64,000 nucleotides of DNA from Citrus sinensis. Its lineage: Eukaryota; Streptophyta; Magnoliopsida; Sapindales; Rutaceae. The notes beneath the pieces are model-generated. The model was not told the DNA's origin and did no database searches. It was given only the letters and a program-made list of their open reading frames with translations. Where the stretch lies: the NCBI RefSeq assembly GCF_022201045.2, contig NC_068558.1, forward strand, positions 45,411,001 through 45,475,000. The letters are read 5' to 3'. Positions 17,822 to 35,799 of the stretch are shown in pieces (position 1 is the first letter of the stretch; every line of letters starts with the position of its first letter). Position numbers and translations under genes: made by a program.

Positions 17822-20248
17822 TTAGCTCACATCCCTTAGTCTTTTTATCAAAGCATCCAGTGATTTCTTTTTTGGATTCTGTTTGGCTCCCCTGCTTCCA
17901 AAAGTTCCAAAAAGCCGATCTGAAGGATCTCTTAACTTCTCTGAAATTGTCACTACTTTCCTGTGGTCCAAAGCATTGTAACTCCTTTCCCTAATCACTG
18001 GATTCAGAAAATTCTCAGGATGATTGCTCAACAGCAAATTCACCAACTGTCTTGACTCAGCAAGCGCTGTCTTCAACTGATTAGCATCCCCATCTGTGAA
18101 TAGGGGAGCCAAATTATCAGCAAATGACTCCAAAAGCCGAATATCTACATCAATTCCCATAATAGCATTGATATTAAACCTCTTCACAGAATCCCCATAT
18201 ACAGCGCCTACAATTGTCTCTGATATGTGAGAAAGGACATCTTGCAAAACCCTTCTAAGAACCTGAGCAGGCAAAATCTGTTGAGCAGTAGAAACCAGGG
18301 TCTCCAAATATATTATCACCTCATTCACATATTCATTCCCATTCTGTAAGGGCTCATCAGCCATCCAGTTCACATTCTCTATCAATGACATGAAACCATC
18401 AACCTTATTCTTAAGCAACCCAGATAGCATTTCCTCTGCAGCATCACGGGCTTTGGTTAGAGGAAATTGCCTCCTACTTCTCTCTGCCATTCTCAATGGA
18501 ATACCAGAAAGCTGTGCAGCATGACGGAAGAAAAAATCACAAGCACGCTCTAAAACGGCCATATTAGCAGCCACCTGCATTGCCTGAGAAACCCCATGGA
18601 CAGATGAATTGATAAGCTTCAACAAAGCCTCATCCAAAACCTCGCCCAAAAGCCTATCCAAATACTTTTTCACAACATCAAAGAACTCCAGATGCCCACC
18701 GTATGACATAAAGCTCACTGAATCCTCAATAAATGACCGAACAATCCTACAGCAATCAGGCACTGTAGAAGAAAATGGTGCAACGTAAGGAAATGCAGGT
18801 ACAATATCGGACGTCTGAATCTGAAATGAAAGCACATTCATCGAATACTCATACTCCTTCTTCATGAGCATCTGCTCAAACTTATCAGCAGCAAGTGCTT
18901 CAGTAATCTGTTTACGACAATCTGACAACAGCAATTCATGATATTTGTCCCTATGTTTGCTCAAAACATCAAGCAAAGCATCTATGGGATACCCATACCT
19001 CCGCAATGTAACACCTAACAAACTCACATAGTCCTTAATCAACAACAAATGATTAGCAGTTTGCATCCTCGAAAACTGATCCTCTAATACTGAACACATT
19101 TTACTAACAGCAGCATCCCACAGATTCTCAACTTCAATTTTAGATATCAAACCACCACCAGTCCTCAAAATTCGATCTTCAACAATGAAAAAGCCCGCAA
19201 TTTGGGCAAAAAATGTTTGATGAGATTCTAGAAACGGAGTCATTGAAGATACCTGAAAATCAGACGTCAATTGAAGCTTCCTGTTTTCGAAATAATACTG
19301 CTTAAATCGATCCTCAAGACCTAATGTTTGGTGAATATGATAAGCTCTATAAAGCGGCGTCAAATCAAACCCTAACAGACCAGCACCACCGTTACTATCA
19401 CTTTCGACGCCGTTACTAAGCCCGTTCTCATCATCATCTTCCTCCTGCAAGGCGTAAACGCAGTCACGCAAACTGAGACGGCTTTGTTCTTCGGCTTGCC
19501 TCTGCTTGATTCGTAAGTCCTCTTCCCGTTGCCGAGCCGAAGAAGCTTGGCCTATCGCTAATTGGCCTAAATTTCGACTCACTACACGGATCTCAACTAG
19601 CCAATCACCGAACTCCTTGTTTACTTTTCTTTCGATGTATGATCTAATCGATGGAGTTTTCTTCTCTAACATTCGCTTCAAAGTAGACGACGGCGCTTTA
19701 TCTGAAAACTCACTTTCCAGTGCATCCGTACACTTCAAAGCCATGTAAAAATTGTTATTCGAAAGATGATGATTTGCTCTGGAACACAGCTCCATCAATT
19801 TGACACAAGACACGATTGATTTCAACGCTAAGTCAATGTTTTTTGAAATAGTTTGCGCTTCCACGTAAGAATCGAGTGAAGCGAGCAGTGGACCGGCAAC
19901 GGACTGGAGCTTGGAGTTGGAATCGGAGAGAGCAGATTTGAGCGAATCGACGTCTGAGAGGAGAGATCGAAGATCATCAACGGCTAGGATGAAGTCCTGG
20001 TAGTGAGCTTTGCAGACTTCCTCGATTTCAGATTCTTTGGATCGGGAGAACTGGCGTAGGTGTTGAAGGAGTGTCTCCGGCTTCCCCGATGCGAAGGCTT
20101 TCCGTACGAACGGGCCCAAGTCTTCGCCGTTGCCTATGGCGGAAGACAGGAGTAGCTGATCGAGTTTATCGGCGGAGTCTCCGCCGTTTGCAGTGGCAGG
20201 AACCACCTTGCGGCGGGTCCTTGCTGACAGCTGCATCCTTTTGAACAA
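17822..20248 (-). CDS. SEC15B: Exocyst complex component SEC15B
   Basis: Single 808-aa frame without introns, as usual for plant SEC15 genes. The N-terminal part (about 30-140) has GEDLGPFVRKAFASGKPETL and KESEIEEVCKAHYQDFI, the conserved coiled-coil start of SEC15; the C-terminal half (about 470-790) is the helical Sec15 domain with EFFDVVKKYLDRLL and INAIMGIDVDIRLLESFADN. SEC15 joins the octameric exocyst, links Rab GTPase-marked secretory vesicles to SEC10, and supports tethering at the plasma membrane during polar growth and cell-plate formation. It looks closer to Arabidopsis SEC15B than SEC15A. Met5 (20236) is a likely alternative start, since relatives begin near MQ-S--RRKV. Length matches the family (about 790-810 aa). 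Confidence 0.95.
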   Translation of the reverse strand: MFKRMQLSARTRRKVVPATANGGDSADKLDQLLLSSAIGNGEDLGPFVRKAFASGKPETLLQHLRQFSRSKESEIEEVCKAHYQDFILAVDDLRSLLSDVDSLKSALSDSNSKLQSVAGPLLASLDSYVEAQTISKNIDLALKSIVSCVKLMELCSRANHHLSNNNFYMALKCTDALESEFSDKAPSSTLKRMLEKKTPSIRSYIERKVNKEFGDWLVEIRVVSRNLGQLAIGQASSARQREEDLRIKQRQAEEQSRLSLRDCVYALQEEDDDENGLSNGVESDSNGGAGLLGFDLTPLYRAYHIHQTLGLEDRFKQYYFENRKLQLTSDFQVSSMTPFLESHQTFFAQIAGFFIVEDRILRTGGGLISKIEVENLWDAAVSKMCSVLEDQFSRMQTANHLLLIKDYVSLLGVTLRRYGYPIDALLDVLSKHRDKYHELLLSDCRKQITEALAADKFEQMLMKKEYEYSMNVLSFQIQTSDIVPAFPYVAPFSSTVPDCCRIVRSFIEDSVSFMSYGGHLEFFDVVKKYLDRLLGEVLDEALLKLINSSVHGVSQAMQVAANMAVLERACDFFFRHAAQLSGIPLRMAERSRRQFPLTKARDAAEEMLSGLLKNKVDGFMSLIENVNWMADEPLQNGNEYVNEVIIYLETLVSTAQQILPAQVLRRVLQDVLSHISETIVGAVYGDSVKRFNINAIMGIDVDIRLLESFADNLAPLFTDGDANQLKTALAESRQLVNLLLSNHPENFLNPVIRERSYNALDHRKVVTISEKLRDPSDRLFGTFGSRGAKQNPKKKSLDALIKRLRDVS

Positions 20249-22621: not shown

Positions 22622-22694
22622 CAAGCCTCTCGCACCCTATATTCTTTATGTTTTTGCATCCAGTTTTTCCAAATTTTGAATTTGTTGGTCTGCT

Positions 22695-24056
22695 TGTTGT
22701 GCAAATTTTAATGTACTCGCAAGCGCACGAATCTATTGTAGTATAGACTAATGGTGACGAGTGTCGATCCCACGAGGAGGTGGATTTTAATTATATATAG
22801 AATTAATTTTGTAAATGGGTAGTTGGATTTATGGTGGAAATGATTTGGAATATGCTAATACTTAAATTAAAATGGCGAGAATAAATTCTAAAATTGGAAT
22901 TGCAATGGAGAGAATAAATTGAAGAGAAAATCTATTAAATTAACGTACTTGGGTATCTGGATCCGTATCAACATGCATCACGGGCTAAATAATCCGTATT
23001 AATGCCAATTAAATCATGAGGGGGGAATCCACACCTCATGAACCACGCTCTAATCAATATGGTGCTAAGGGCTTATCGTGCCAAATAATAATAACCTTAT
23101 ACTAGAGAGCCGGTGTAACCAAGGCGGTATCTAGACAAGATTAGTATTATTTGTCGACGAGAAGTCAAAACATCCACAAAAATTAGAGGGGAAGAGAAAG
23201 TAAATTTACCAAATTAAGCCCATGACACATGTTGAGACTTCACCTTCAACCCAAGCTTGAAAGAAAATTAGCCACTCATAATTGAACTAGGGGCAAAATG
23301 GGAATTTATTAAAATACGAAGAAAATACAAGATGGAGAAGGAATTACAGAAAATGGATTCCAAAAATGGATTCAGAGATATCAAATTAGGGGGGGGAGGC
23401 CCCCTTTTTATAGATACATGGAGTAAATCATGGCCATCGGATTAAAAAATAGTTTGGACGCTCAGGATTGCGCCACGTCATCAGTCAACAGTCCACGGTT
23501 TGACCACGCGGATGAACAGTAACACGGTTTGACCCGACTTTGAACAGTAACGCGGTTTGGTTGAAAATAATCCTGTGTGATGCATGCACCGTACGCGAGA
23601 TTTTTCGTCCACTGATATGCTGCCACGTCACCATCAACAGTACATAAGAATTTTAGTCCAACAGGATCGTGACACCTCATCAGTCAATGCCACATCATCG
23701 GTCAATGCCACGTCATCATCCGTCTATGTGAACAGTGTCGTGAACAGTAACGTATACAGTACCGTACACGTGAATAGTACCGTACATGTGAATAGTGTCA
23801 TTTTTCCTTTTATGCTCCTCCTAAGGTTTTCGACCGTCCTGAGTTCAAAAGTGATGTCCGTTTTGCCGTCTGATCTCTCCTTTATTGTGAAATGACTATA
23901 ATGCCCCTAAAATACATAAAATACTTAATTAAAATAAAACACATGTAATTAAATCACAAGAAGGTTAAATATATAAAAGTAAGGGTTGTTAGTAAGACTT
24001 AAAATGTAAAATGACGGTTTTCTCCTTTATAAATATGCATTTTCTAACACTCAACA
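22695..24056 (-). repeat. 3' LTR of the Athila-type element
   Basis: Starts TGTTGTGCAAATTTTAATG and ends ACTCAACA on the plus strand, 1362 bp. By eye I see only two differences from the other LTR: T at 23359 against C at 34528, and C at 23720 against T at 34889. Confidence 0.95.
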
Positions 24057-24066
24057 CACCCCCCAA
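24057..24066 (-). promoter_or_regulatory. Polypurine tract of the Athila-type element
   Basis: On the element strand TTGGGGGGTG directly precedes the 3' LTR. It is the expected second-strand primer site. Confidence 0.75.
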
Positions 24067-26003
24067 CCAGCTTATTGCTAGTCCCTAGCAAATAAAGCGA
24101 AAACAAAATTCAAATTCAAAATAATTTTTTTTTTTTTTAATAGAAACACTCGTATTTATTCCATCAGATTAATGATAGCAATCAAATAAAAGTATAAGCA
24201 TTATCTCCAGTCTAAAGCAACATCACACCCACATCAACCATCCACATGAATTAGCCCAGTAGACTTTGTTTTAGCTACTCTCAAGAATGACATGTCAAAC
24301 CCCAAAATCTCACTGGAAGTAGTGACACTCTCACAAATAAATTAATCCCAATAAAAATAGTCACTCCAATGAATGGTAATTGAGAGAGAAAATAATAAAG
24401 AAGTGATATCACATGCTCTCACCAAGATGAAATAAATATGCCCTCAGCTTAGAAATAATACGATCTCAAGTCAAATAAAATGTTAGTCAACCCACTTTAT
24501 TTATCTTTTTTTTTTTTTTAATTATGCATCACTACATCTTTTTAGCCCATATAACTACCTTCTACTTCGGACTATAGTTCCCTAAAATCAAGAAGGACTT
24601 TTATTAGGACGTAACGTAGGCTAGGGACATGGTTAACAAAGAAGGGAAATAAGGAAAACAAAGTGTATGTTTGAGAAAAATGCAGAGAATTTTTTTTTTT
24701 TTTTTTTTTTGGAAGTTGCAAGGTGGATTTCACCTATTTTTATTCTTTTGAAACAACAACTTTTGTTTTTGTTTTTGTTTTTTTTTTTGTTTTTTTTTTT
24801 GGCATAACTTCACTAAACAACATAATTATTTACATTTTCTCAAACATAAATAGGTGATGGAACTTATAAGACATCGGGTAATACTCCAAATCGGAGTGGG
24901 TCAAGATGATAAGTTGACAAAGAAAATGTTTTTTTTTTTTTTTTTAAAGGCTCAAAAGGGTTAACTATGGATATTAAATAAAAGGGATGGCTTGAAAGGC
25001 TCAAACGGATCAAAGATGGCCTCTCCATCGTCTTTTAGGGCTCTAAATAATCTTCCATATCTACTAGTTAGATGGGCCTCCAAATGTAGCAACACACTCT
25101 TTTTTCTTTTTCTTTTTTCTTTTTTTTTATTTTACAATTTTTTTTTAAGGGTTAACTCAAAAGTAATTTAGAGATCGTGTATAAAATAATAAACTGCTAA
25201 GCTGTATAAAGAGTGGGCAAAAGGGTTATTCTCCAAGAAAAATAATAGGCTCAAAAACTCACTTGGTACTTATTATGACATGTTCATTCCTTCAAGCAAC
25301 TCACATTTGTCTCCGACATCAACATGTAGAGTAGCAAACATAATGTAACATCACTTAAGACCAAAGATAATACAAATACTAAAATTTAAATTAATCATGT
25401 CACCCAATGTTAAAACAAATCAAATTTTTTTTTTTTTTTAAAAAAAACATTCTACCCCCCAACCTATTCTAAACATTAAAAAAAAAAAATATGCATGCAG
25501 AAATGTGAAAATGATGTAGAAAAATTAATTTAGAAAAGTTACATTTAAAATGATAGAAAAGAAAATGATTTTTTTATTATTTTTTTTAAAGAAGATGCGT
25601 TTCTAGAGGAACTACACTCCATATTCAGCCATCTTCGACTCAAAAGTTGGAAAATGCATTTTTATAGAGGATAAATTAAAAAGAAGAAAAATAAACATAA
25701 ACACATAATAAAGAAAAAAGAAAATGTCTTAATTTTTTTTTAAGTTTTTTTTTTTAATTTTTTTTTTAAACGATGAAGATGCGTTTCTAGAGTCACTACA
25801 CTCCATATTCAGCCATCTTCAACACAAAAAGTTAGCAACAGTTAGTTTCTACAACAAAAAATTAGTAAAAACTTAACCAAAATTTCATAATTGTCGACTA
25901 TTCCCTCCCCCCAACCAGAACGAAACATTGTCCTCAATGTTTGAAATGAAAGAAGTAGAGTTTAGAAGACATCACCTGGGTGGTACAACACAGAAGAAAA
26001 TAT
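24067..26003 (-). other. Long non-coding tail of the retrotransposon with A-tracts and a diverged 60-bp repeat
   Basis: Nearly 2 kb between the LOG-like ORF and the polypurine tract has no open frame of note. It holds at least eight homopolymer T runs of 10-22 bases on the plus strand (A-runs in the element transcript), for example near 24690-24710 and 24922-24944. A direct repeat containing GAAGATGCGTTTCTAGAG and CTCCATATTCAGCCATCTTC occurs at 25591-25652 and 25775-25838. Function unknown. Confidence 0.7.
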
Positions 26004-26672
26004 TTACAGGCGGAGAGTTAAATCTAATTTGTACTTCTTACTGCTGCTACTGTTACCATCATTATTTGGGCGCTCCAACACAAAGGTCCAGGGGTCTGGC
26101 TCCGGTTTATACGCTTGTAACAGATCAAGTAGCTCATTAGCAGTGTGAGCACAAATAAAGAGTTTTTTCACATTAGCGGGAATGAAATAGTTTTTTATTG
26201 CATGGTTAAGAAATGCGATAAAGCCATCATAAAAGTTATTGACATTTAACAAACCGATGGGTTTTTGGTGGATGTGCAGATGGGCCCAAGATGCTAGCGT
26301 GATAAGTGCCTCTAGTGTTGCAAGATCTCCTGGAAGGAAAATAAAAGCATCAGCATGATTAAGCATTTCAGTTATTCTTTCTTGCATACCTGAGACGACT
26401 AACTCTTCTCCAGTTGATGAGTCAGACGAACTGCCCAATGGTTTTAAGACTCTTGGGATGATGCCTAACACTTGACTTCCTCTGATAAAAGCTGCTTCGG
26501 AGACCATTTTTGATAACCCTCGGTTACCTCCTCCATACACCAAATGTAAATTTCTCGCTGCTATGCTTCGACCAAGATCTATGGCTGCCTCAACGAACTC
26601 TTTATGTTTGCCATATGTAAATCCAGAAAGCACACAAATGTTCTTGAATTGTCTATTGGGAGTAGCTGACAT
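26004..26672 (-). CDS. LOG-like (cytokinin riboside 5'-monophosphate phosphoribohydrolase) protein encoded by the retrotransposon
   Basis: Intact frame of 222 aa from the ATG at 26672; it stays open 57 codons further upstream (to 26843), but the homology begins at FKNICVLSGFTYGKHKEF, where LOG proteins start. LOG features in order: LVYGGGNRGLSKMVSEAA (Rossmann loop), VLGIIPRVLKP, GMQERITEM (the catalytic Arg is kept) and WAHLHIHQKPIGLLNV. The signature PGGxGTxxE is changed to PGDLATLEA, losing two Gly and the catalytic Glu, and the Lys usually after the catalytic Arg is Ile. Authentic LOG releases active cytokinin bases from their nucleotides. Here the fold seems kept but activity is doubtful. 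The frame has no stop or indel, unlike gag-pol. Confidence 0.85.
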   Translation of the reverse strand: MSATPNRQFKNICVLSGFTYGKHKEFVEAAIDLGRSIAARNLHLVYGGGNRGLSKMVSEAAFIRGSQVLGIIPRVLKPLGSSSDSSTGEELVVSGMQERITEMLNHADAFIFLPGDLATLEALITLASWAHLHIHQKPIGLLNVNNFYDGFIAFLNHAIKNYFIPANVKKLFICAHTANELLDLLQAYKPEPDPWTFVLERPNNDGNSSSSKKYKLDLTLRL

Positions 26673-26992
26673 TGTGATACTTCTCAAAAACAATTTGTGA
26701 GTGCTTGACAAAAAAGAAATCACATTTAAGAGTCTTGGTGATAGTGGGTCATGGTTGTGTATGAGGTAATATGTCAGTGTCAAATAACGCGTAAAGCACG
26801 TGGCTCGCAAGTCAAAAAGAAAACAGTAAAAAGGAAAAAGCAAACAGTAATAAAATTATTAAAGACAATAATGCAAACAATAAGACAATAGTGAAATAAA
26901 ATAACAATAAAGTAAAAGGATATTTACAGGTAGTTGCGACTGTGGCTCACATCTTCCTCTGGTTTTACGTCCAGAAACGGCTTGAACGCCCT

Positions 26993-27550
26993 CTATGGGT
27001 CGAGGATAGGCTTCCTATCCAGTTTTCTTATAAACTGGCAAACAGGGTCGTTTATAGTCAGATTCCCGAGACTATATCGTGCATGCTCTTTCTGGAATAA
27101 TGGCCATAACTGGAGAATCGCTCCTTGCACATATCCACTGGGATGCGTTTCAAGAGACAAAAGGATATCATCCAATGACTCCTTATTCAAGCCATCCCTA
27201 ATGAATTGAATCTTATCTTCCCTGTTATCAGACACCATTCCTAAAGAACATGGGTTTTTATTGCAACTCATTCTGGCACACTTATGACAAGCAACAGAAA
27301 TTCTTCGAGCTCGTCGTTTTCTTGCATAATTTCCTTTACCACAACCAGGCATGTATGCAATAAATTTTGGAGGTAACTCACCTGCCGATCGTACTTTAGC
27401 CTCGATTAACCAACGGATGTCAGCAGGTATGTTATTCCTCATGAGTAATCGCATGCGTTCGGACCGAGCTTTATAGATCGTAAGGAGGGCATTCTGAGGA
27501 AGTGAAGGGAATCGCTTGTGAAGCTTCGCTAGAATCTCGTTTCTGTCCAT
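26993..27550 (-). CDS. Accessory ORF: basic Cys-rich protein, carlavirus NABP-like layout
   Basis: Intact 185-aa frame between pol and the LOG-like ORF. The N-terminal third is helical and basic (TIYKARSERMRLLMR). At about residues 74-100 a basic patch, GNYARKRRARRISV, runs directly into CHKCARMSCNKNPC (C-X2-C, X4, C-X4-C), then a Gly-hydrophobic-Asn stretch. This order of Tyr-Ala-Arg basic patch and four-Cys finger resembles the small cysteine-rich nucleic-acid-binding proteins of carlaviruses (Carla_C4 family); the C-terminal 70 residues (THPSGYVQGAILQLWPLF) match nothing I know. Nucleic-acid binding is a reasonable inference. The relation to the viral family is by pattern, from memory, and needs a profile search. 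It could instead be a diverged plant zinc-finger gene. Confidence 0.6.
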   Translation of the reverse strand: MDRNEILAKLHKRFPSLPQNALLTIYKARSERMRLLMRNNIPADIRWLIEAKVRSAGELPPKFIAYMPGCGKGNYARKRRARRISVACHKCARMSCNKNPCSLGMVSDNREDKIQFIRDGLNKESLDDILLSLETHPSGYVQGAILQLWPLFQKEHARYSLGNLTINDPVCQFIRKLDRKPILDP

Positions 27551-27691
27551 ACCTTCGCCTCAGAATATCAGTTATTATGGGAAACTGAAGTAACCGACTT
27601 GATTGTCACGGAGTACCGTTATCCGCCACTTCACCGGGGTAACAAACTAAAGCACACAAATAGAAAAACAAATTAAAACACACAAAGAAAA

Positions 27692-27967
27692 TTAAAATCG
27701 TCCTCTTATTGAATTTACCTCAAGCTCCAACTGGATGTCGTAAACACTTCTCTCAATGTCTCTGAGTTGGTGTTCTAAACCCTCAACATAGGCTACTAAC
27801 TCTGGTGGTTGTAGAGCCCAAATGCGATGTGTTTTACAAAATTGAATCTGTCTTTTGAGATGAGTTTTGACACGTTGAAGTGGTTTAAGAATGTTCAAGA
27901 GGAACGGTCTAAGTATGAGACTCATGATTAAAAATGATAAGAGAAAACTTAATGGTAAAATAAACAC
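27692..27967 (-). CDS. Accessory ORF: small protein with hydrophobic N-terminus
   Basis: Open frame of 91 aa, the first after integrase on the element strand. Residues 1-28 are strongly hydrophobic (LPLSFLLSFLIMSLILRPFL), enough for a signal anchor or one membrane segment. The rest is basic and then acidic and probably helical (HQLRDIERSVYDIQLELEV). Met15 could be an alternative start that removes half of the hydrophobic stretch. I recognise no family. Its position suits a vestigial env-like gene of Athila elements, but no sequence match supports that. Confidence 0.4.
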   Translation of the reverse strand: MFILPLSFLLSFLIMSLILRPFLLNILKPLQRVKTHLKRQIQFCKTHRIWALQPPELVAYVEGLEHQLRDIERSVYDIQLELEVNSIRGRF

Positions 27968-28053
27968 ACTTATGCAAAAACAATTTCAATTAGCAAAAGA
28001 ATAATATAAAGAAAGAAAACAAAATCAAATCAACGAAAAGAAAGAAAAAAAAA

Positions 28054-31000
28054 TCAATTCAAATCTGGTGGGTCACTCAAATTTATTTCGGTGTCTTCTC
28101 CACGTGGTTGGTATTCTAGATATGGCTTTAATCTTTGACCATTAACTTTAAACGTGACACCGTTCTTTGGGTCCTTAATTTCAATTGCCCCATGTGGAAA
28201 AACAGTATGAACAATAAATGGGCCAGACCAACGAGAGCGTAACTTACCTGGGAATAGGTGCAAGCGAGAATTGAACAAAAGCACTTTCTGACCTGGAGTG
28301 AAAGATTTTCTCATAATGTGCTTGTCATGAAAAAACTTTCATTCGTTGCTTGTAAATCTTGGCATTTTCGTATGCATCATTGCGAATTTCTTCAAGTTCT
28401 GCCAGTTGTAATCGTCTTTCTGAGCTGGCATGCTGCATGTCAAAATTGAATTTCTTGATGGCCCAATACGCACGATGCTCGAGTTCCACAGGTAGGTGGC
28501 AAGCTTTTCCATACACTAGCCTGTAGGGTGACATCCCAATCGGGGTCTTGAAAGCCGTTCTATATGCCCATAAGGCATCATCAAGTCTAAATGACCAATC
28601 TTTTCTGTCCGGCCTCACCGTCTTTTCTAATATGTGCTTTATTTCTCGATTGGAGATCTCAACTTGGCCACTGGTTTGCGGATGATACGGGGTCGCCACT
28701 TTGTGTGTGATTGAATACTTTGTCAAAAGAGCTTTGAATGCTTTGTTACAAAAGTGGGCACCACCATCACTGATTATTGCTCGAGGGAATCCAAAGCGTG
28801 AAACAATGTTGCTTTTCAAAAATGCTATCACCACCTTGTGATCATTGGTCCTACATGGAATTGCTTCTACCCATTTTGATACGTAGTCAACAGCAACCAA
28901 TATGTATTGATGGCCAAAAGAAGGGGGAAAGGGTCCCATGAAGTCGATACCCCATACGTCAAAAATCTCAACCACTAAAATTGGATTTAGTGGCATCATG
29001 TTCCTTCGTGTAATGCTTCCCATTCGTTGACACCTATCACATGAAGAACAGAAAGTGTAAGCGTCTCGAAATATAGATGGCCAATAGAAACCACATTGTA
29101 AAACTTTAGTCGCTGTCTTCTTAGCACTGAAATGGCCTCCACAAGCTTGTTCATGGCAGAATGAAAGGATATTCTGAATTTCACTTTCTGGGACACATCG
29201 TCTAACAATTTGATCCGCACAATACTTGAACAAATACGGGTCATCCCAAAAGAAATTCTTTATCTCTGCAAAGAATTTAGCCTTGTCTTGCTTGGTCCAA
29301 TGCTCTGGAAGTTTACCTGTAACAAGATAATTAACTATATCAGCATACCAAGGTAATACTTCCACACTCATTAATTGTTCATCTGGAAATGACTCATTTA
29401 ATGTTAATGGCTCTGTAATTGTGTCAAAGTGAAGACGAGAGAGATGGTCCGCCACAACATTTTCTGACCCTTTCTTATCTTTGAATTCCAAGTCAAATTC
29501 CTGCAAAAGTAACACCCAACGAATTAGTCTAGCTTTTGCATCTTTCTTTGTGAGAAGATATTTAAGAGCAGCATGATCTGTGAACACAATTATTTTACAA
29601 CCAATGAGATAAGATCGAAATTTTTCCAATGCAAACACTACTGCTAGCATTTCTTTTTCAGTAGTTGAATAGTTCAACTGTGCATCATTCAATGTCATAC
29701 TAGCATAGTAAATAACATGAGGAATTCGATCAACTCTTTGTCCTAAAACTGCTCCTACTGCATAATCAGATGCATCACACATGAGCTCAAATGGTAAGCT
29801 CCAGTTTGGGGCCTGAATGATGGGTGATGATGTCAACAATTGTTTTAATTTTTCAAACGCCATGAGACATGAATCATTAAAGATAAAAGGTACATCCTTA
29901 GCAAGTAAATTGCATAAGGGTCTAGAAACTTTGCTAAAATCTTTAATGAAACGTCTATAGAAACCAGCATGCCCAAGGAAAGATCTTACTTCTCTGACTG
30001 TTTTGGGTGGAGGAAGATTAGAAATGAGATCCACCTTGGCTTTGTCAACCTCAATACCTTTGCTCGAAATGATGTGACCGAGAACAATACCTTGTTTTAC
30101 CATAAAATGGCATTTCTCCCAATTTAAGACCAAGTTCTTCTCGATACATCTCTGCAGAACTAGTGTTAGATGATGTAAACATTGATCAAACGAGTCACCA
30201 AAGACAGAAAAGTCATCCATAAAGACTTCAAGGAATCGTTCAACCATATCAGAAAAAATGCTCAACATGCATCGTTGAAATGTAGCAGGTGCATTACATA
30301 ATCCAAATGGCATTCTCCTATATGCAAATGTGCCAAAAGGGCAAGTGAAAGTAGTTTTCTCTTGATCTTTTGGTGCTATGGGAATCTGATTATATCCTGA
30401 GTAGCCATCTAGAAAGCAATAAAATTCATGGCCTGCTAATCTATCAAGCATTTGATCAATAAATGGTAAAGGAAAATGGTCTTTACGTGTGACAGAATTC
30501 AACTTCCTATAATCAATACATACACGCCATCCTGTAGTTACTCTAGTGGGTATCAATTCATTATCAGCATTCGTAACTACTGTGATTCCTGACTTTTTGG
30601 GGACAACTTGCACAGGACTGACCCATGAACTATCAGAAATTGGGTAAATGATACCTGCATCTAATAGCTTAAGGACTTCAATTCTAACAACTTCTTTCAT
30701 ATTAGGATTTAACCGACGTTGCATTTCCCTAGTAGATTTAGCATTTTCATCGAGGTGAATGTAATGCATGCAGTCTACTGGATTTATACCTTTTATATCT
30801 GCTATGGTCCATCCTAATGCTTCTTTGTGCTCTTTTAAAACATCCAACAACTTACCTTTTTGTTCGTCATTTAGGGATGATGAGATGATTACCGGCAGAG
30901 TACTTTCTTTTCCCAAAAATGCATATTCCAGAGTGCTGGGCAATGGTTTGAGCTCGAGTTTCGGTGGTAATTCTGATGATGGGATGAGTTTCTTCTCTGA

Positions 31001-32842
31001 TGGTGCTAGTTGTTCAACTCTTGACTTCCATTTATTAGTGTCCATGGATGGTGCTGAGTCAAGTAGAGCGTTGACCTCATCGACCGATCTGTCAATATCA
31101 AAATTCAAACCAAAGTGAGTTAAACATGTTTGTAAAGGATCATCACTAAGGTTTGAAACAAAAGTATCATCAACTAATGCTTCAATTAAATCCACATCAA
31201 CAATTCCATCATCTGCACTGTGAGGTTGTTTGGCAATGTTGAAGATGTTTAGCTCCATAGTCATGTTGCCGAAGGACAACTGCATATTTCCAGTCCTACA
31301 TTGAATGTGAGCATCCGCAGTTGCCAAGAAAGGTCGGCCTAGGATAATGGGGATGTGCTTCCTTGAATCCTGTATTGGTTGAGTGTCAATTACAATGAAA
31401 TCAACAGGAAAATAAAACTTGTCTACCTGGATAAGCACGTCCTCCACAATACCACGAGGTATTTTTGTGGACCGATCTGCAAGCTGTAACACCACTGGAG
31501 TTGGGTGTAATTCTCCAAGTCCAAGTTTCACAAATACTGAATAAGGCAACAAATTTACACTAGCTCCTAAATCCAACAAAGCATTCTCAATTGTGTGGTT
31601 CCCTATGCTACATGAGATAGTGGGGGAGCCTGGATCTTTGCATTTTAAAGGAATTTTATGTTGGAGTATAGAACTAACGTTTTCTGTTAAAAAAGCCTTC
31701 TTTTGAACATGCATATTTCTCTTTTTAGTACAAAGGTCTTTAAGAAACTTGGCATAAGATGGAACTTGTTTAATAGCATCAAGTAAAGGGATGTTAACAC
31801 TTACCTGTTTGAAGATTTCGAGAATCTCACCTGTGGATTTTCCCTTCTTGCCTTTAGCTAACCTCTGGGGAAATGGAGCTTTCGGAACATATTCTCGTGG
31901 GTTGGTTTCTTCTTTCTCCTCCGATAATGAGTCGTCAACATTTATAGGTACAATTTGATTTTCTTTTTTCGCCGGCATCTCCACTTTGTTGTCGACTTCT
32001 TTTCCTTTTCGCAAGGTCATTACTGCTTTGACCTCTCCATGCTGCTGTGGTGAACTGGTACTTGCTTCATGCACTCCTTTAGGGTTAGGCACTGGTTGAC
32101 TTGGAAACTTACCTTTCTCAACGGTCATTGCCAAGGTTTGAACTGAAGAAGCAAGTTGTCCCACCATCTTCTCGAGGCTTGAAACCGATTGAGCTTGTGA
32201 GTTGAAGCCTGCTCTCAACTCATTTCGTAGTCCATCAATGGTGCGGTTCTGTTGCTCAATCGTGGAGTGAGTAACATTCCTGAAATTCTGAAATGCATCC
32301 TCCCATGGTCTAGGTTGAGAGTGGTTCTGGTTCTGATTGTATGGTCTAAATGGTGGCTGAGAGGCTTGAGAAATTTGAGGAATTGGTTGCATTGGTGGAG
32401 CTGGAGCTGCTGGTCCATTCTGTTGGAGTCCTTGAGACCATGAAAAATTGGGGTGGTCTCTCCATCCAGGGTTATATGTGTTGGAGTATGGGTTGTAATT
32501 TGATGGCTTTCTCATTACACCTATGGCATTGGCTTGATCTGAGTATGAGTCATGGTCATGTGGTTCTGTTGATTTAGCAGTCGATAACGATGCTATTTGT
32601 CGAGCAAGACCTTCAATTATCGCTTTGACTTCTTTGATTTCTGAATTTGATTCGCCAATTTGAACCTCATTCACTCCTTTAATTCTTCTAGTATTCCTGA
32701 GTGATCGACTCCGTTGTTGGGAATTATCCGCTTGTCGCTGGAAAAATTCCCAAATCTCTGATGCACTTTTTGACATTAGCTCTCCTCCACTTGTTGCCAT
32801 TAGCCATTCTTGCACATTTGGTAGTAATCCCTCCAAAAAGTA
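28054..32842 (-). pseudogene. Athila-type pol (late gag, protease, RT, RNase H, integrase), one frameshift
   Basis: Long frame in phase with gag but separated from it by a TAA at 32843-32845. Residue numbers count from the codon at 32836. Protease DLGAS is at about 422; RT has [13 protein letters not shown] and the catalytic FMDD at about 872; RNase H has [13 protein letters not shown] and [11 protein letters not shown]; integrase has an HHCC finger and a D,D-35-E triad (Asp1298, Asp1357, Glu1393). The frame breaks in a T-run near 28333-28340, and the integrase C-terminus ([17 protein letters not shown], 28054-28314) continues in another frame. All visible catalytic residues are kept, so apart from these two lesions the polyprotein looks competent. 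Confidence 0.9.
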
Positions 32843-33448
32843 TTAGCATTGGTGCCATTTCTCGTACCCATGATGTGGACACTTCAAGAGTAGCCCATTG
32901 AATCGCTCCCATGTTTCGAAAAACTGCTCGTCCTCTCTTTGGGTAAACTCCGAGATTTCCCTGCGAATAGCATTGGTTTTATGCACTGGGAAATATTTAT
33001 TCAAAAATTTTGTAACCATTTGTTCCCATGATGCAATGCTATTAGCAGGCAATGTATTAAGCCATGAACGAGCCCTATCCTTTAAAGAAAATGGGAATAG
33101 TCTAAGTTTAACATCATCGTCTGAAAAATTTTCATATTTAAAAGTTTGACAAATGGCATGAAAATCGTTCAGATGATTATATGGATCCTCATTTTCTAGG
33201 CCATAAAATGTGGGGAGACAATTTAGCACACTAGGTTTTAATTCGAAACTCCTAGCAGCTACATTTGGGTATCTTATGCATGATGTGCTCAAATTAGCTA
33301 AGGGACTGAAGTAGTCCTTAAATGGCCTCTCTTGTGGTTGCAAATCCATTTCAAATTTATTTTTAATGTGCTTTTGTGTGCGAAGTGTTTTTTCTAATTC
33401 AAGGTCTATAGGTTCAAGATTAGGTAATAATGACCTACGACCATGCAT
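32843..33448 (-). pseudogene. Athila-type gag, N-terminal part ending at an in-frame stop
   Basis: From the likely start MHGRRSLLP (33448; the frame is open 20 codons further upstream) this is the retrotransposon gag domain, with LRLFPFSLKDRARSWLNTLP, FPVHKTNAIRREISEF and LLLKCPHHGYEKWHQC. It ends at TAA (32843-32845), where homology to gag continues directly in the same frame. A single nonsense change, or rarely a read-through stop, explains this. Gag would form the virus-like particle that packages the element RNA. Confidence 0.88.
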
Positions 33449-33839
33449 GCAAAATAAATAAAATAAAAATAAAGATGCAAACAAAACAAAAAATAAAGAT
33501 GGGAACAAAACAAATAAAAATAAAGAAGAGGGAGAAATTACGATACTAACCTTATTGCGCTATTACAACCTTTCTATAAAAATACACAAAAATAAATACG
33601 TGAAAGAAATTAACTAAAAATTAAATTAATAAGATAAACAAAAAAAAATTACAAAGAAAAATAAATAGAAAATTAAATTACAGAATTTTAAAGAAGAGAA
33701 AAAAGAAAAGAAATACTAACCTTTAAATGTAGATTCACTTTTTTTTTTCTTTTTTTTTAATTTAATAAAAAAAATACAAGAAAACAAATAAAAGAAATTA
33801 TTCAAAAAAATTTAATTCTATTAATTAAAATTACTTACC

Positions 33840-33857
33840 TCCCCGGCAACGGCGCCA
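33840..33857 (-). promoter_or_regulatory. Primer-binding site, tRNA-Asp type
   Basis: On the element strand TGGCGCCGTTGCCGGGGA lies 6 bp inside the 5' LTR boundary. I recall this sequence as complementary to the 3' end of plant tRNA-Asp, the usual Athila primer. Confidence 0.75.
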
Positions 33858-33863
33858 AAAACT

Positions 33864-35225
33864 TGTTGTGCAAATTTTAATGTACTCGCAAGCGCACGAA
33901 TCTATTGTAGTATAGACTAATGGTGACGAGTGTCGATCCCACGAGGAGGTGGATTTTAATTATATATAGAATTAATTTTGTAAATGGGTAGTTGGATTTA
34001 TGGTGGAAATGATTTGGAATATGCTAATACTTAAATTAAAATGGCGAGAATAAATTCTAAAATTGGAATTGCAATGGAGAGAATAAATTGAAGAGAAAAT
34101 CTATTAAATTAACGTACTTGGGTATCTGGATCCGTATCAACATGCATCACGGGCTAAATAATCCGTATTAATGCCAATTAAATCATGAGGGGGGAATCCA
34201 CACCTCATGAACCACGCTCTAATCAATATGGTGCTAAGGGCTTATCGTGCCAAATAATAATAACCTTATACTAGAGAGCCGGTGTAACCAAGGCGGTATC
34301 TAGACAAGATTAGTATTATTTGTCGACGAGAAGTCAAAACATCCACAAAAATTAGAGGGGAAGAGAAAGTAAATTTACCAAATTAAGCCCATGACACATG
34401 TTGAGACTTCACCTTCAACCCAAGCTTGAAAGAAAATTAGCCACTCATAATTGAACTAGGGGCAAAATGGGAATTTATTAAAATACGAAGAAAATACAAG
34501 ATGGAGAAGGAATTACAGAAAATGGATCCCAAAAATGGATTCAGAGATATCAAATTAGGGGGGGGAGGCCCCCTTTTTATAGATACATGGAGTAAATCAT
34601 GGCCATCGGATTAAAAAATAGTTTGGACGCTCAGGATTGCGCCACGTCATCAGTCAACAGTCCACGGTTTGACCACGCGGATGAACAGTAACACGGTTTG
34701 ACCCGACTTTGAACAGTAACGCGGTTTGGTTGAAAATAATCCTGTGTGATGCATGCACCGTACGCGAGATTTTTCGTCCACTGATATGCTGCCACGTCAC
34801 CATCAACAGTACATAAGAATTTTAGTCCAACAGGATCGTGACACCTCATCAGTCAATGCCACATCATCGGTCAATGCCACGTCATCATTCGTCTATGTGA
34901 ACAGTGTCGTGAACAGTAACGTATACAGTACCGTACACGTGAATAGTACCGTACATGTGAATAGTGTCATTTTTCCTTTTATGCTCCTCCTAAGGTTTTC
35001 GACCGTCCTGAGTTCAAAAGTGATGTCCGTTTTGCCGTCTGATCTCTCCTTTATTGTGAAATGACTATAATGCCCCTAAAATACATAAAATACTTAATTA
35101 AAATAAAACACATGTAATTAAATCACAAGAAGGTTAAATATATAAAAGTAAGGGTTGTTAGTAAGACTTAAAATGTAAAATGACGGTTTTCTCCTTTATA
35201 AATATGCATTTTCTAACACTCAACA
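33864..35225 (-). repeat. 5' LTR of the Athila-type element
   Basis: 1362 bp, nearly identical to 22695-24056. On the element strand it would drive transcription of gag-pol and possibly the accessory genes. Confidence 0.95.
34570..34884 (-). promoter_or_regulatory. LTR promoter: TATA box and three TGACGTGG motifs
   Basis: On the element strand TATAAAAAGGGG lies at 34570-34581. Upstream are three exact TGACGTGG motifs (34642-34649, 34792-34799, 34877-34884), a bZIP target of the C/G-box hybrid or UPR-element type, and several GTTACTGTTC repeats. The same arrangement occurs in the other LTR (23473, 23623, 23708). Transcription would start some 30 bp after the TATA box. Stress induction is inferred. 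Confidence 0.55.
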
Positions 35226-35799
35226 CTGCTTACGGGGTAAATGTCAGTAATATTGGTCTGCTTACGGTTGCTTCAAATTTTCAGGATGATATGTCTCGTA
35301 AAGACTGGAACTTGGTTAAGGTGCTGAAGAAAATTTTTAAGATACCATAAAGTGATGAATATTGTTCTATGAACGATTGGGCAGTTGAGTACTGCTCTTG
35401 GAATAATGCAGTCAATCTTTCTTTCATGCTAAGTTTTGTTAATAAATTTTTCATAGATACTTTGAGATAATCGATAACATGAATCTTTTAATTTCTTCGG
35501 ATACTGATTCCAAATTCTGGGATTTTCTTCATCTTTCATTTGTTAGAAATTGGTGCCTGAAGCCTGAAGCCAAACGAACATATTGGCAGTTTTAAATCAA
35601 GTACCTTAGACAACCAATGATTCATTTAAAATAAATTTAAGAAAGAAAAAAAGAGAGAACAGTAACATATGACATCTCAAATACGGCCAAAGGTTCAAGC
35701 TACAAAATGTGCCAAGCCATGTTGTTGAGCAAGCGTGCCTCTGGAACTTCCATCTTCATCAACTCTATTTTCTTCCAGCAAAACAATAACCAAGCAAAT

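Follow-up and report, generated by a model that had tools for sequence, protein, structure and literature searches.

A three-ORF cassette under purifying selection, with a predicted flexivirus-type Cys-finger protein and a probable LOG pseudoenzyme, in an abundant Citrus retrotransposon family

Background

What do three sense ORFs lying 3' of the integrase do for the retrotransposon that carries them? For plant LTR elements in general, both the reason that additional ORFs are retained and their function are posed as an open question in the available text of PMC7264820 and PMC11728184. The case considered here lies in a window of 64,000 nucleotides of Citrus sinensis (GCF_022201045.2, NC_068558.1:45,411,001-45,475,000), which is the whole stretch of DNA analyzed and to which all positions refer. 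A first-pass annotation had placed three ORFs (here A, B and C) between integrase and 3' LTR on the minus strand of an Athila-type element, and all three are indeed present there.

The element and its copies

The element has two LTRs with TG..CA ends, a target-site duplication, a primer-binding site and the order gag-protease-RT-RNase H-integrase, all on the minus strand. The LTR pair (22693-24057 and 33862-35226) is 99.85% identical, with 2 mismatches in 1365 positions; trimmed to their ends, the 3' LTR spans 22695..24056 and the 5' LTR 33864..35225, flanked by the 5-bp duplication CTGCT (as read from the element flanks) at 22690-22694 and 35226-35230. Adjoining the 5' LTR is the primer-binding site (33840..33857), which we take to be of the tRNA-Asp type. 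By Pfam matches, the gag ORF (Retrotrans_gag, 32843..33508) ends at an in-frame stop at 32845 and is followed by a 1503-aa protease-RT-RNase H-integrase ORF (28325..32836); an 86-aa integrase C-terminal ORF lies in a different frame (28054..28314) and is 75% identical in a second lineage. This one stop and one frame change (28327) are the only defects in an otherwise single long open frame, so that gag-pol, previously described as broken, hardly deserves the term. As the element is young and its gag-pol so little damaged, the survival of open ORFs beside it, earlier taken as a sign of their importance, is weak evidence. The RNase H matches are to RT-linked Pfam models only, with no second, archaeal-type RNase H, which is a mark of Tat elements in the available text of PMC6317226. 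The element is thus a young Athila-type LTR retrotransposon, the clade name being taken from its structure and the first-pass annotation.

Athila elements likewise bear sense accessory or env-like ORFs between pol and the 3' LTR (Transposase_32/PF03078; available text of PMC11728184 and PMC7264820). However, ORFs A, B and C give no Pfam match to these Athila 3' families, and elsewhere in this genome there are Athila copies that carry an Athila-type ORF where the cassette would stand. When copies were picked by the RT motif alone, 14 of 20 had A, B and C in place, confirming that the three ORFs recur at the same position, and in these 14 ORF-B was intact (no stops, no indels) in 13 and ORF-C in 11. 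The B-C order is kept in three lineages. The LOG-like motif PGD[L/F]AT.EA has 832 matches in the genome and the RT motif 859, the reversed control giving none in either case. The cassette family is therefore large, very abundant in this genome and recently active.

ORF-B, ORF-A and the conserved blocks

ORF-B (26993..27550, minus strand; 185 aa) combines a basic stretch with a Cys4 finger, and the proposed presence of a viral-type nucleic-acid-binding protein in the element is upheld by profile matches of its family. The profiles PF05515 and PF01623 were each matched by 24 of 28 aligned members at E<=0.01 (best E 1e-8), and among seven members scanned singly six exceeded the curated cut-off of the former and five that of the latter, while none of ten shuffled controls matched; the window's own ORF-B scores below both cut-offs. 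The basic, NLS-like run and the four cysteines are invariant or nearly so among the members (A1). On these sequence grounds ORF-B is a predicted homologue of the cysteine-rich nucleic-acid-binding proteins (CRP/NABP) of flexiviruses (carlaviruses, allexiviruses, mandariviruses), with which it shares the basic stretch followed by the finger. The likeness is limited to approximately 80-95 residues surrounding the finger, and beyond the Pfam match the ORF-B family shows a conserved C-terminal part peculiar to it. Viral CRP/NABP bind nucleic acid and blunt host silencing or alter host transcription, and some flexivirus cysteine-rich proteins are suppressors of RNA silencing. The viral proteins are encoded by RNA virus genomes, whereas ORF-B resides in a retrotransposon; the mandarivirus gene overlaps the coat-protein ORF (available text of PMC12172455). 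Relatives of ORF-B were found in the named hosts Citrus, Acer, Xanthoceras, Populus and Rhamnella, and scans of IMG/VR contigs yielded no viral relatives. Its structure model (mean pLDDT 60) was too low for use.

Non-coding blocks on the minus strand are conserved on either side of ORF-B. Block N2 (26893..26995), directly 3' of ORF-B, is found in three lineages, including the gamma locus L090, and a comparison between lineages shows differences at 9 of 100 sites (P=1.6e-8 relative to the cassette 4-fold rate). Translation might in principle run past the ORF-B stop into N2, which is open, but this was discounted because the inter-lineage differences there are, on inspection, not synonymous; for the same reason the constraint on N2 looks to be at the RNA or DNA level. 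The count for block N1 (27570..27625), upstream of ORF-B, is by itself weak (22 of 88 sites differ in the region 27644-27556, P=0.067). Stable structure around N1 and N2 was unsupported (z 0.31 and -1.07). Further along the same strand lie an internal polypurine-tract-like block (25880..25990), present also in the second-lineage copy L002 and the gamma locus L089, and two hairpin repeat units at 25753..25829 (fold z = -3.1) and 25569..25645 (z = -0.94). Rfam gave no match at E<=1 in N1, N2 or the hairpins.

ORF-A (27692..27925, minus strand) encodes 77 aa with no known domain. It had been read as a 91-aa protein with a hydrophobic N-terminus, a reading that begins at GTG and is an artefact of that start: the ATG at residue 15 is conserved in all 14 sampled copies carrying ORF-A, and in 5 of these a stop codon precedes that ATG, at residue 4. 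The protein accordingly has 77 residues and lacks the hydrophobic stretch, whose codons precede the conserved ATG. A possible splice donor (GAG|GTAAAT) could have joined ORF-A to an exon further downstream, but it is not conserved in L002 and the idea was dropped. ORF-A has 48 relatives, and their sole named host is Citrus.

These features invite comparison with the env-like region of other Athila elements, for which A, B and C might stand in, serving in particle assembly, RNA packaging or chaperoning with ORF-B as an accessory nucleocapsid protein. The cassette does occupy the place of the Athila-type ORF of another lineage, ORF-B is a basic Cys-finger protein, and the conserved blocks adjoin it. 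However, the ATG-started ORF-A has no obvious membrane segment on inspection, and to our knowledge no LOG-like protein contributes to particles; we regard such a role as rather unlikely.

ORF-C, a LOG-like protein without the catalytic glutamate

ORF-C (26004..26672, minus strand; 222 aa) matches PF03641 with E=9e-28 in Pfam and scores above the cut-off for the broad family TIGR00730, which bears out the identification of a LOG homologue in the element. Its similarity to canonical LONELY GUY proteins (AtLOG3, 2a33; AtLOG8, 1ydh; CgLOG, 5its) extends over nearly the whole length, with 42% identity to AtLOG3 (77/183) and 38% to AtLOG8, and includes the Arg99-type residue. Canonical members keep the catalytic Glu and the phosphate-loop Gly, whereas ORF-C has both replaced and does not show the PGGxGTxxE motif with its catalytic Glu. 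In an alignment of 182 ORF-C sequences (165 distinct), none has the catalytic Glu, two having a gap at the site; Gly116Asp is seen in 177 and Lys100Ile in 168, and Arg99 is retained in 161. The phosphate and prenyl sites also carry substituted residues. Outside this alignment, three other genomic element copies have Glu at the catalytic site (PGDLATLEE). Replacement of such residues by Ala in CgLOG nearly abolishes activity, except for S19A (available text of PMC4979012). The deposited chains 5zbj and 5zbk show the same Glu-to-Ala difference in alignments. The structure model of ORF-C, built on a shallow alignment of close relatives, was unusable (mean pLDDT 36.6), and the LOG fold was judged by sequence.

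The altered pocket suggests that ORF-C is probably a pseudoenzyme and not a maker of cytokinin, though such changes do not prove the loss of every catalytic activity. We consider it very unlikely that ORF-C still releases cytokinin by a changed mechanism and, as was earlier proposed, raises meristem cytokinin so that the element reaches the germline. Its LOG-like length, its TIGR00730 score, the purifying selection upon it and the general retention of Arg99, Thr119, Glu121 and Trp129 would fit such an enzyme, but the Glu is absent from 182 of 182 sequences, Gly116, Gly118, Lys100 and Glu125 are replaced in nearly all, the score against the equivalog NF058542 is 91.8 bits, far below its cut-off of 300, and the 5zbj/5zbk difference speaks against it as well.

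Two decayed, older elements (gamma copies) carry ORF-B and then a LOG downstream of pol and retain PGGLGTLEE, from which it follows that the catalytic motif was lost after capture; by its sequence, ORF-C is best read as the descendant of a LOG that had the motif when first carried. In trees of nine and ten sequences the element LOGs sit on a long stem with gamma at its base, and these trees did not resolve the source host LOG group. ORF-C is intronless; the host Citrus LOGs at L043 and L087, by contrast, contain introns and still have the motif. Between lineages the cassette is less diverged than pol (41 of 125 against 177 of 279 4-fold sites differing, p=1.4e-8, with one second-lineage copy in the pol comparison), which suggests that it was exchanged between element lineages; there is no sharp exchange boundary, and the spacer at 28050-27900 is nearly unalignable.

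Selection on the cassette

Comparison of the window copy with L002 gave dN/dS of 0.33 for ORF-A, 0.24 for ORF-B and 0.20 for ORF-C, at dS of 0.95, 0.95 and 0.77 respectively; the ratios are well below 1 and the cassette is not confined to one copy. Private variants have nonsynonymous to synonymous counts of 59:24 in ORF-B and 62:35 in ORF-C, against a neutral expectation of about 2.4, and variants common to at least three copies have 2:9 and 13:30. The contrast is significant for B and C (Fisher p 0.001 and 0.0004) in the larger sample, whose loci beyond the RT sample were mostly picked by match score; it is not significant within the 14 RT-sampled copies alone and never so for ORF-A. Private variants look neutral and shared ones are poor in amino-acid changes. 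The A-B-C cassette is under purifying selection. That the ORFs are functionless passengers of gag-pol is scarcely credible: young copies do stay open without selection, many are nearly identical and the RT-sampled copies alone show no significant contrast, but this is largely contradicted by ratios of 0.20-0.33 at dS 0.8-0.95, by the paucity of amino-acid changes among shared variants in the larger sample and by the B-C order kept in three lineages.

Proposed role of the cassette

We think it probable that the selected cassette aids the element, ORF-B through nucleic-acid binding and ORF-C as a pseudoenzyme through binding. In this family the cassette would have taken the 3' place of the Athila-type ORF and would be expressed. 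ORF-B, by analogy with the viral proteins, might enter the nucleus, bind nucleic acid and weaken host silencing or change host transcription. Because its catalytic residue is lost, ORF-C probably acts by binding and not by hormone making; it would release no cytokinin, and would most likely pair with a host LOG or else hold a nucleotide ligand. A bolder form of this proposal, which we put forward tentatively and hold to be unlikely, is that the cassette is a counter-defence module passing from one retrotransposon lineage to another, comprising a flexivirus-type silencing suppressor and a LOG pseudoenzyme that binds host LOG as a poison subunit or traps a host nucleotide signal. If true, a retrotransposon would have taken up a virus-type anti-silencing gene together with a hormone gene whose product changed from enzyme to decoy.

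The first-pass annotation knew of no such combination, and as to the LOG domain this did not stand: the available text of PMC9289625 (citing Steinbauerova 2011) reports YgdH/LOG in Citrus Ty3-gypsy consensuses, and also in Populus trichocarpa when the n5 filter is dropped. Given the same domain, superfamily and genus, these Citrus elements are very probably the same as ours; that text gives presence only, whereas the catalytic residues, selection, neighboring genes and exchange come from the present analysis. As to the viral-type partner, the titles and abstract beginnings of the literature searched place no carlavirus-type NABP in a retrotransposon; nor was a viral-type gene, catalytic loss, selection or exchange found there for LOG-bearing elements. 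The orchid Ty3-gypsy elements with an AlkB-type m6A demethylase (available text of PMC9289625) are likewise a case of plant LTR elements in which an additional gene became fixed and was amplified; they carry one domain, functional according to the title, whereas the citrus element carries three ORFs, one apparently a pseudoenzyme.

Conclusions

ORF-C has 757 relatives, and among the best 120 all named hosts are Citrus; Citrus x changshan-huyou has many proteins of this kind annotated as cytokinin riboside phosphoribohydrolases, and some of its gene models fuse B and C (P0173, P0194, P0203). Gene counts are thereby affected, the changed LOG motif standing at 832 places in the Citrus sinensis genome. 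The family allows selection, the loss of catalysis after capture and a homologue of viral silencing-suppressor type to be tested together in one abundant and recently active group of elements.

The element and recurrence of its cassette

The window element (22695-35225, minus strand) is a young LTR retrotransposon flanked by a 5-bp TSD; its two LTRs, aligned over 1365 bases, show 2 mismatches, and it has a PBS, gag and a frame for protease, RT, RNase H and integrase. The first-pass annotation described its gag-pol as broken; with only one in-frame stop (32845) and one frame change (28327) we call it lightly damaged. Downstream of the integrase lie, all in the sense orientation, ORF-A (27692-27925, 77 aa), ORF-B (26993-27550, 185 aa) and ORF-C (26004-26672, 222 aa). 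The previously proposed 91-aa version of the first of these needs a GTG start; the conserved ATG at residue 15 is kept in all 14 sampled copies that have ORF-A, with a stop upstream of it in 5 of them. Proteins near-identical to those of the window occur in Citrus x changshan-huyou. A snoR71-like match (32865-32968, plus strand, antisense to gag) scores 39.1 bits against a gathering threshold of 40. The element lies about 2.4 kb upstream of a SEC15/EXOC6-type exocyst gene (17822-20248) in the same orientation, so transcription starting in its 3' LTR could extend into this gene.

Motif scans of the genome (299.7 Mb, 11 contigs) recovered 859 places with a degenerate RT motif (reversed control 0) and 832 occurrences of the LOG-like motif PGD[L/F]AT.EA (control 0). 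Every fourth of the 78 RT-motif places listed on contig C1 was sampled (n=20), and 2.6 kb was read at the expected cassette position of each: 14 copies contained A, B and C, one (L064) had a damaged LOG only, and five had none of the cassette. The ORFs recur at the same position in many copies, the outcome that the first-pass annotation's check asked of a system as opposed to a single passive capture. Of the 14 complete copies, 13 have a B without stops or indels and 11 such a C; A, read from its ATG, is stop-free in 12. Two cassette-free copies encode an ORF matching Transposase_32 (L061, 38 of the required 45 bits and hence below the cut-off; L063, 47.4, above it), a domain described as related to Athila ORF1 (PMC11728184). 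Two others, L066 and L070, share peptides with these, the Pfam match itself being confined to L061 and L063; the four form a separate Athila lineage with a Transposase_32-type ORF in place of the cassette. At the fifth place (L075) the sequence passes into a further copy, at its 5' part.

Selection, exchange and non-coding conservation

A second lineage (L001-L008 and others) contains all three ORFs at 56-75% identity to those of the window, open in most copies read, with B interrupted by a stop in L048 and in L001 (a copy also recorded as L045). Between the window and L002 of this lineage dN/dS, which the first-pass annotation had proposed to compute, is well below 1: 0.33 (A), 0.24 (B) and 0.20 (C), at dS of 0.95, 0.95 and 0.77. 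Among copies of the window element's lineage, we contrasted variants seen in a single copy (private) with those common to at least three. Private variants have an about neutral N:S ratio (B 59:24, C 62:35; 2.43 and 2.33 expected without selection), whereas common ones are short of amino-acid changes in B (2:9, p=0.001, n=48 copies) and C (13:30, p=0.0004, n=43 copies). ORF-A shows no significant difference (28:12 private, 5:4 shared, p=0.45), nor do B (p=0.32) and C (p=0.13) in the 14 RT-sampled copies alone. As most additional copies came from similarity-ranked searches, this contrast is supporting evidence from a sample that is not clean.

Four-fold sites, for which L077 and L002 were each compared separately with the window, differ between lineages at 177/279 positions in pol versus 41/125 in A-C (p=1.4e-8). 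When pol is restricted to the codons for which cassette-free Athila copies were compared as well (0.66-0.73), 119/187 sites differ; in the integrase C-terminal ORF, 8/26 do. Identity drops back to 0.3-0.5 downstream of about 25.75 kb. The lower divergence of the cassette and this drop fit its passage between lineages, with only one second-lineage copy set against the window in the comparison; recombination between distantly related Athila elements has been reported in Arabidopsis (PMC2410132). Counting against exchange, the spacer 28050-27900 is likewise nearly unalignable, leaving no clean breakpoint.

Two non-coding blocks flank ORF-B. N2 (26893-26995), directly 3' of its stop, shows differences between the lineages at 9/100 sites (P=1.6e-8 relative to the four-fold rate of the cassette) and also follows ORF-B in L090 (82 bases), a locus of the decayed gamma lineage, extending it to three lineages; it was not found in the other gamma locus, L089, whose ORF-B is truncated. 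N1 (27570-27625), upstream of ORF-B, is weaker by count (22/88, P=0.067), and its three-lineage conservation is less clear: it precedes ORF-B in L089 (73 bases), and the gamma copy of L090 has only 22 bases of it, with a 52-base match elsewhere in that locus on the other strand. These blocks may act in translation, splicing or packaging. Tandem hairpin units (25569-25645 and 25753-25829) follow an internal PPT-like block and are doubled in L002 too. Across 8 sequences the outer stem retains 7 of 7 pairs, and a single sequence accounts for both of the compensatory changes seen; for the inner stem, in the form drawn, only half of the cells pair.

A virus-type protein beside a LOG without its catalytic glutamate

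Relatives of ORF-B number 282; the named hosts among the 120 listed are Citrus, Xanthoceras, Acer, Populus and Rhamnella, which belong to three rosid orders. Clusters of 566 and 315 members suggest repeats, with protein sequences as the source outside this genome. In an alignment of 28 members, a basic stretch and a Cys4 finger stand out. The flexivirus profiles Viral_NABP and Carla_C4 each match 24/28 members at E<=0.01, the best at 1e-8. The first alignment member, which is the window's protein lacking its Met, matches neither at this threshold; with Met the protein gives E = 0.047 and 0.0095, respectively. Scanned singly, 6/7 members pass the Viral_NABP cut-off and 5/7 that of Carla_C4, and neither profile matched any of 10 shuffled relatives. 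Mandariviruses infect citrus, and their proteins of this type are described as pathogenicity factors with an NLS and a zinc finger, one of which suppresses silencing; a carlavirus counterpart is a transcription factor inducing hyperplasia (PMC12172455).

The closest solved relatives of ORF-C are AtLOG3 (42% identity) and AtLOG8 (38%); its structure model failed (pLDDT 36.6), so the LOG fold is argued from sequence alone. In CgLOG, catalysis is proposed to depend on Arg99 and Glu122, phosphate is held by Ser19 and a glycine loop, and substitution by Ala nearly abolishes activity, except in S19A, which is more active (PMC4979012). We aligned 182 element LOGs (the window, 61 loci and 120 database proteins, the best 120 of 757; 165 distinct), in which some loci are one copy fetched twice, one is the window's own, and some database models are truncated. 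No sequence keeps Glu122 (Ala 169, Thr 7, gap 2, others 4); Asp replaces Gly116 in 177, Ile replaces Lys100 in 168 and Thr replaces Glu125 in 177, while 161 retain Arg99 and 179 retain Trp129. The putative Ser19 position, placed by offset in the solved-relative alignment, is Phe in 175. Between lineages, the changed stretch ranks with the best-conserved parts (85-90% of bases). In host LOGs of this genome (L043, L087) the motif is intact and the gene is interrupted by introns. Four published Citrus x changshan-huyou gene models (P0005, P0173, P0194, P0203) fuse ORF-B and ORF-C, and three are named cytokinin riboside phosphoribohydrolase, element proteins thus being annotated as hormone genes.

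A motif scan recovered six places with Glu at the catalytic position: three single element copies reading PGDLATLEE, one host LOG and two gamma copies. In the gamma copies, pol is followed by a damaged ORF-B, which precedes a LOG reading PGGLGTLEE, although Lys100 is replaced by Leu and Glu125 by Thr. Hence the Lys100 and Glu125 changes seem to have come first and catalytic loss later, in lineages that then multiplied, as judged from a gamma lineage seen in two copies only, both decayed.

Functional implications

The first-pass annotation knew of no such combination of genes. That Citrus gypsy elements can carry a YgdH/LOG domain was already known (PMC9289625); by the literature searched, what seems new is the virus-type neighbor with rosid-wide relatives, along with catalytic loss after capture, selection on the ORFs and exchange. 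Our preferred reading is that ORF-B manipulates host silencing or transcription and that ORF-C is a LOG-derived binding protein. ORF-C might poison host LOG or, alternatively, trap a ligand. As the LOG pocket is formed by two subunits (PMC4979012), a poisoned mixed dimer of ORF-C and host LOG would give the former proposal a concrete, testable form.
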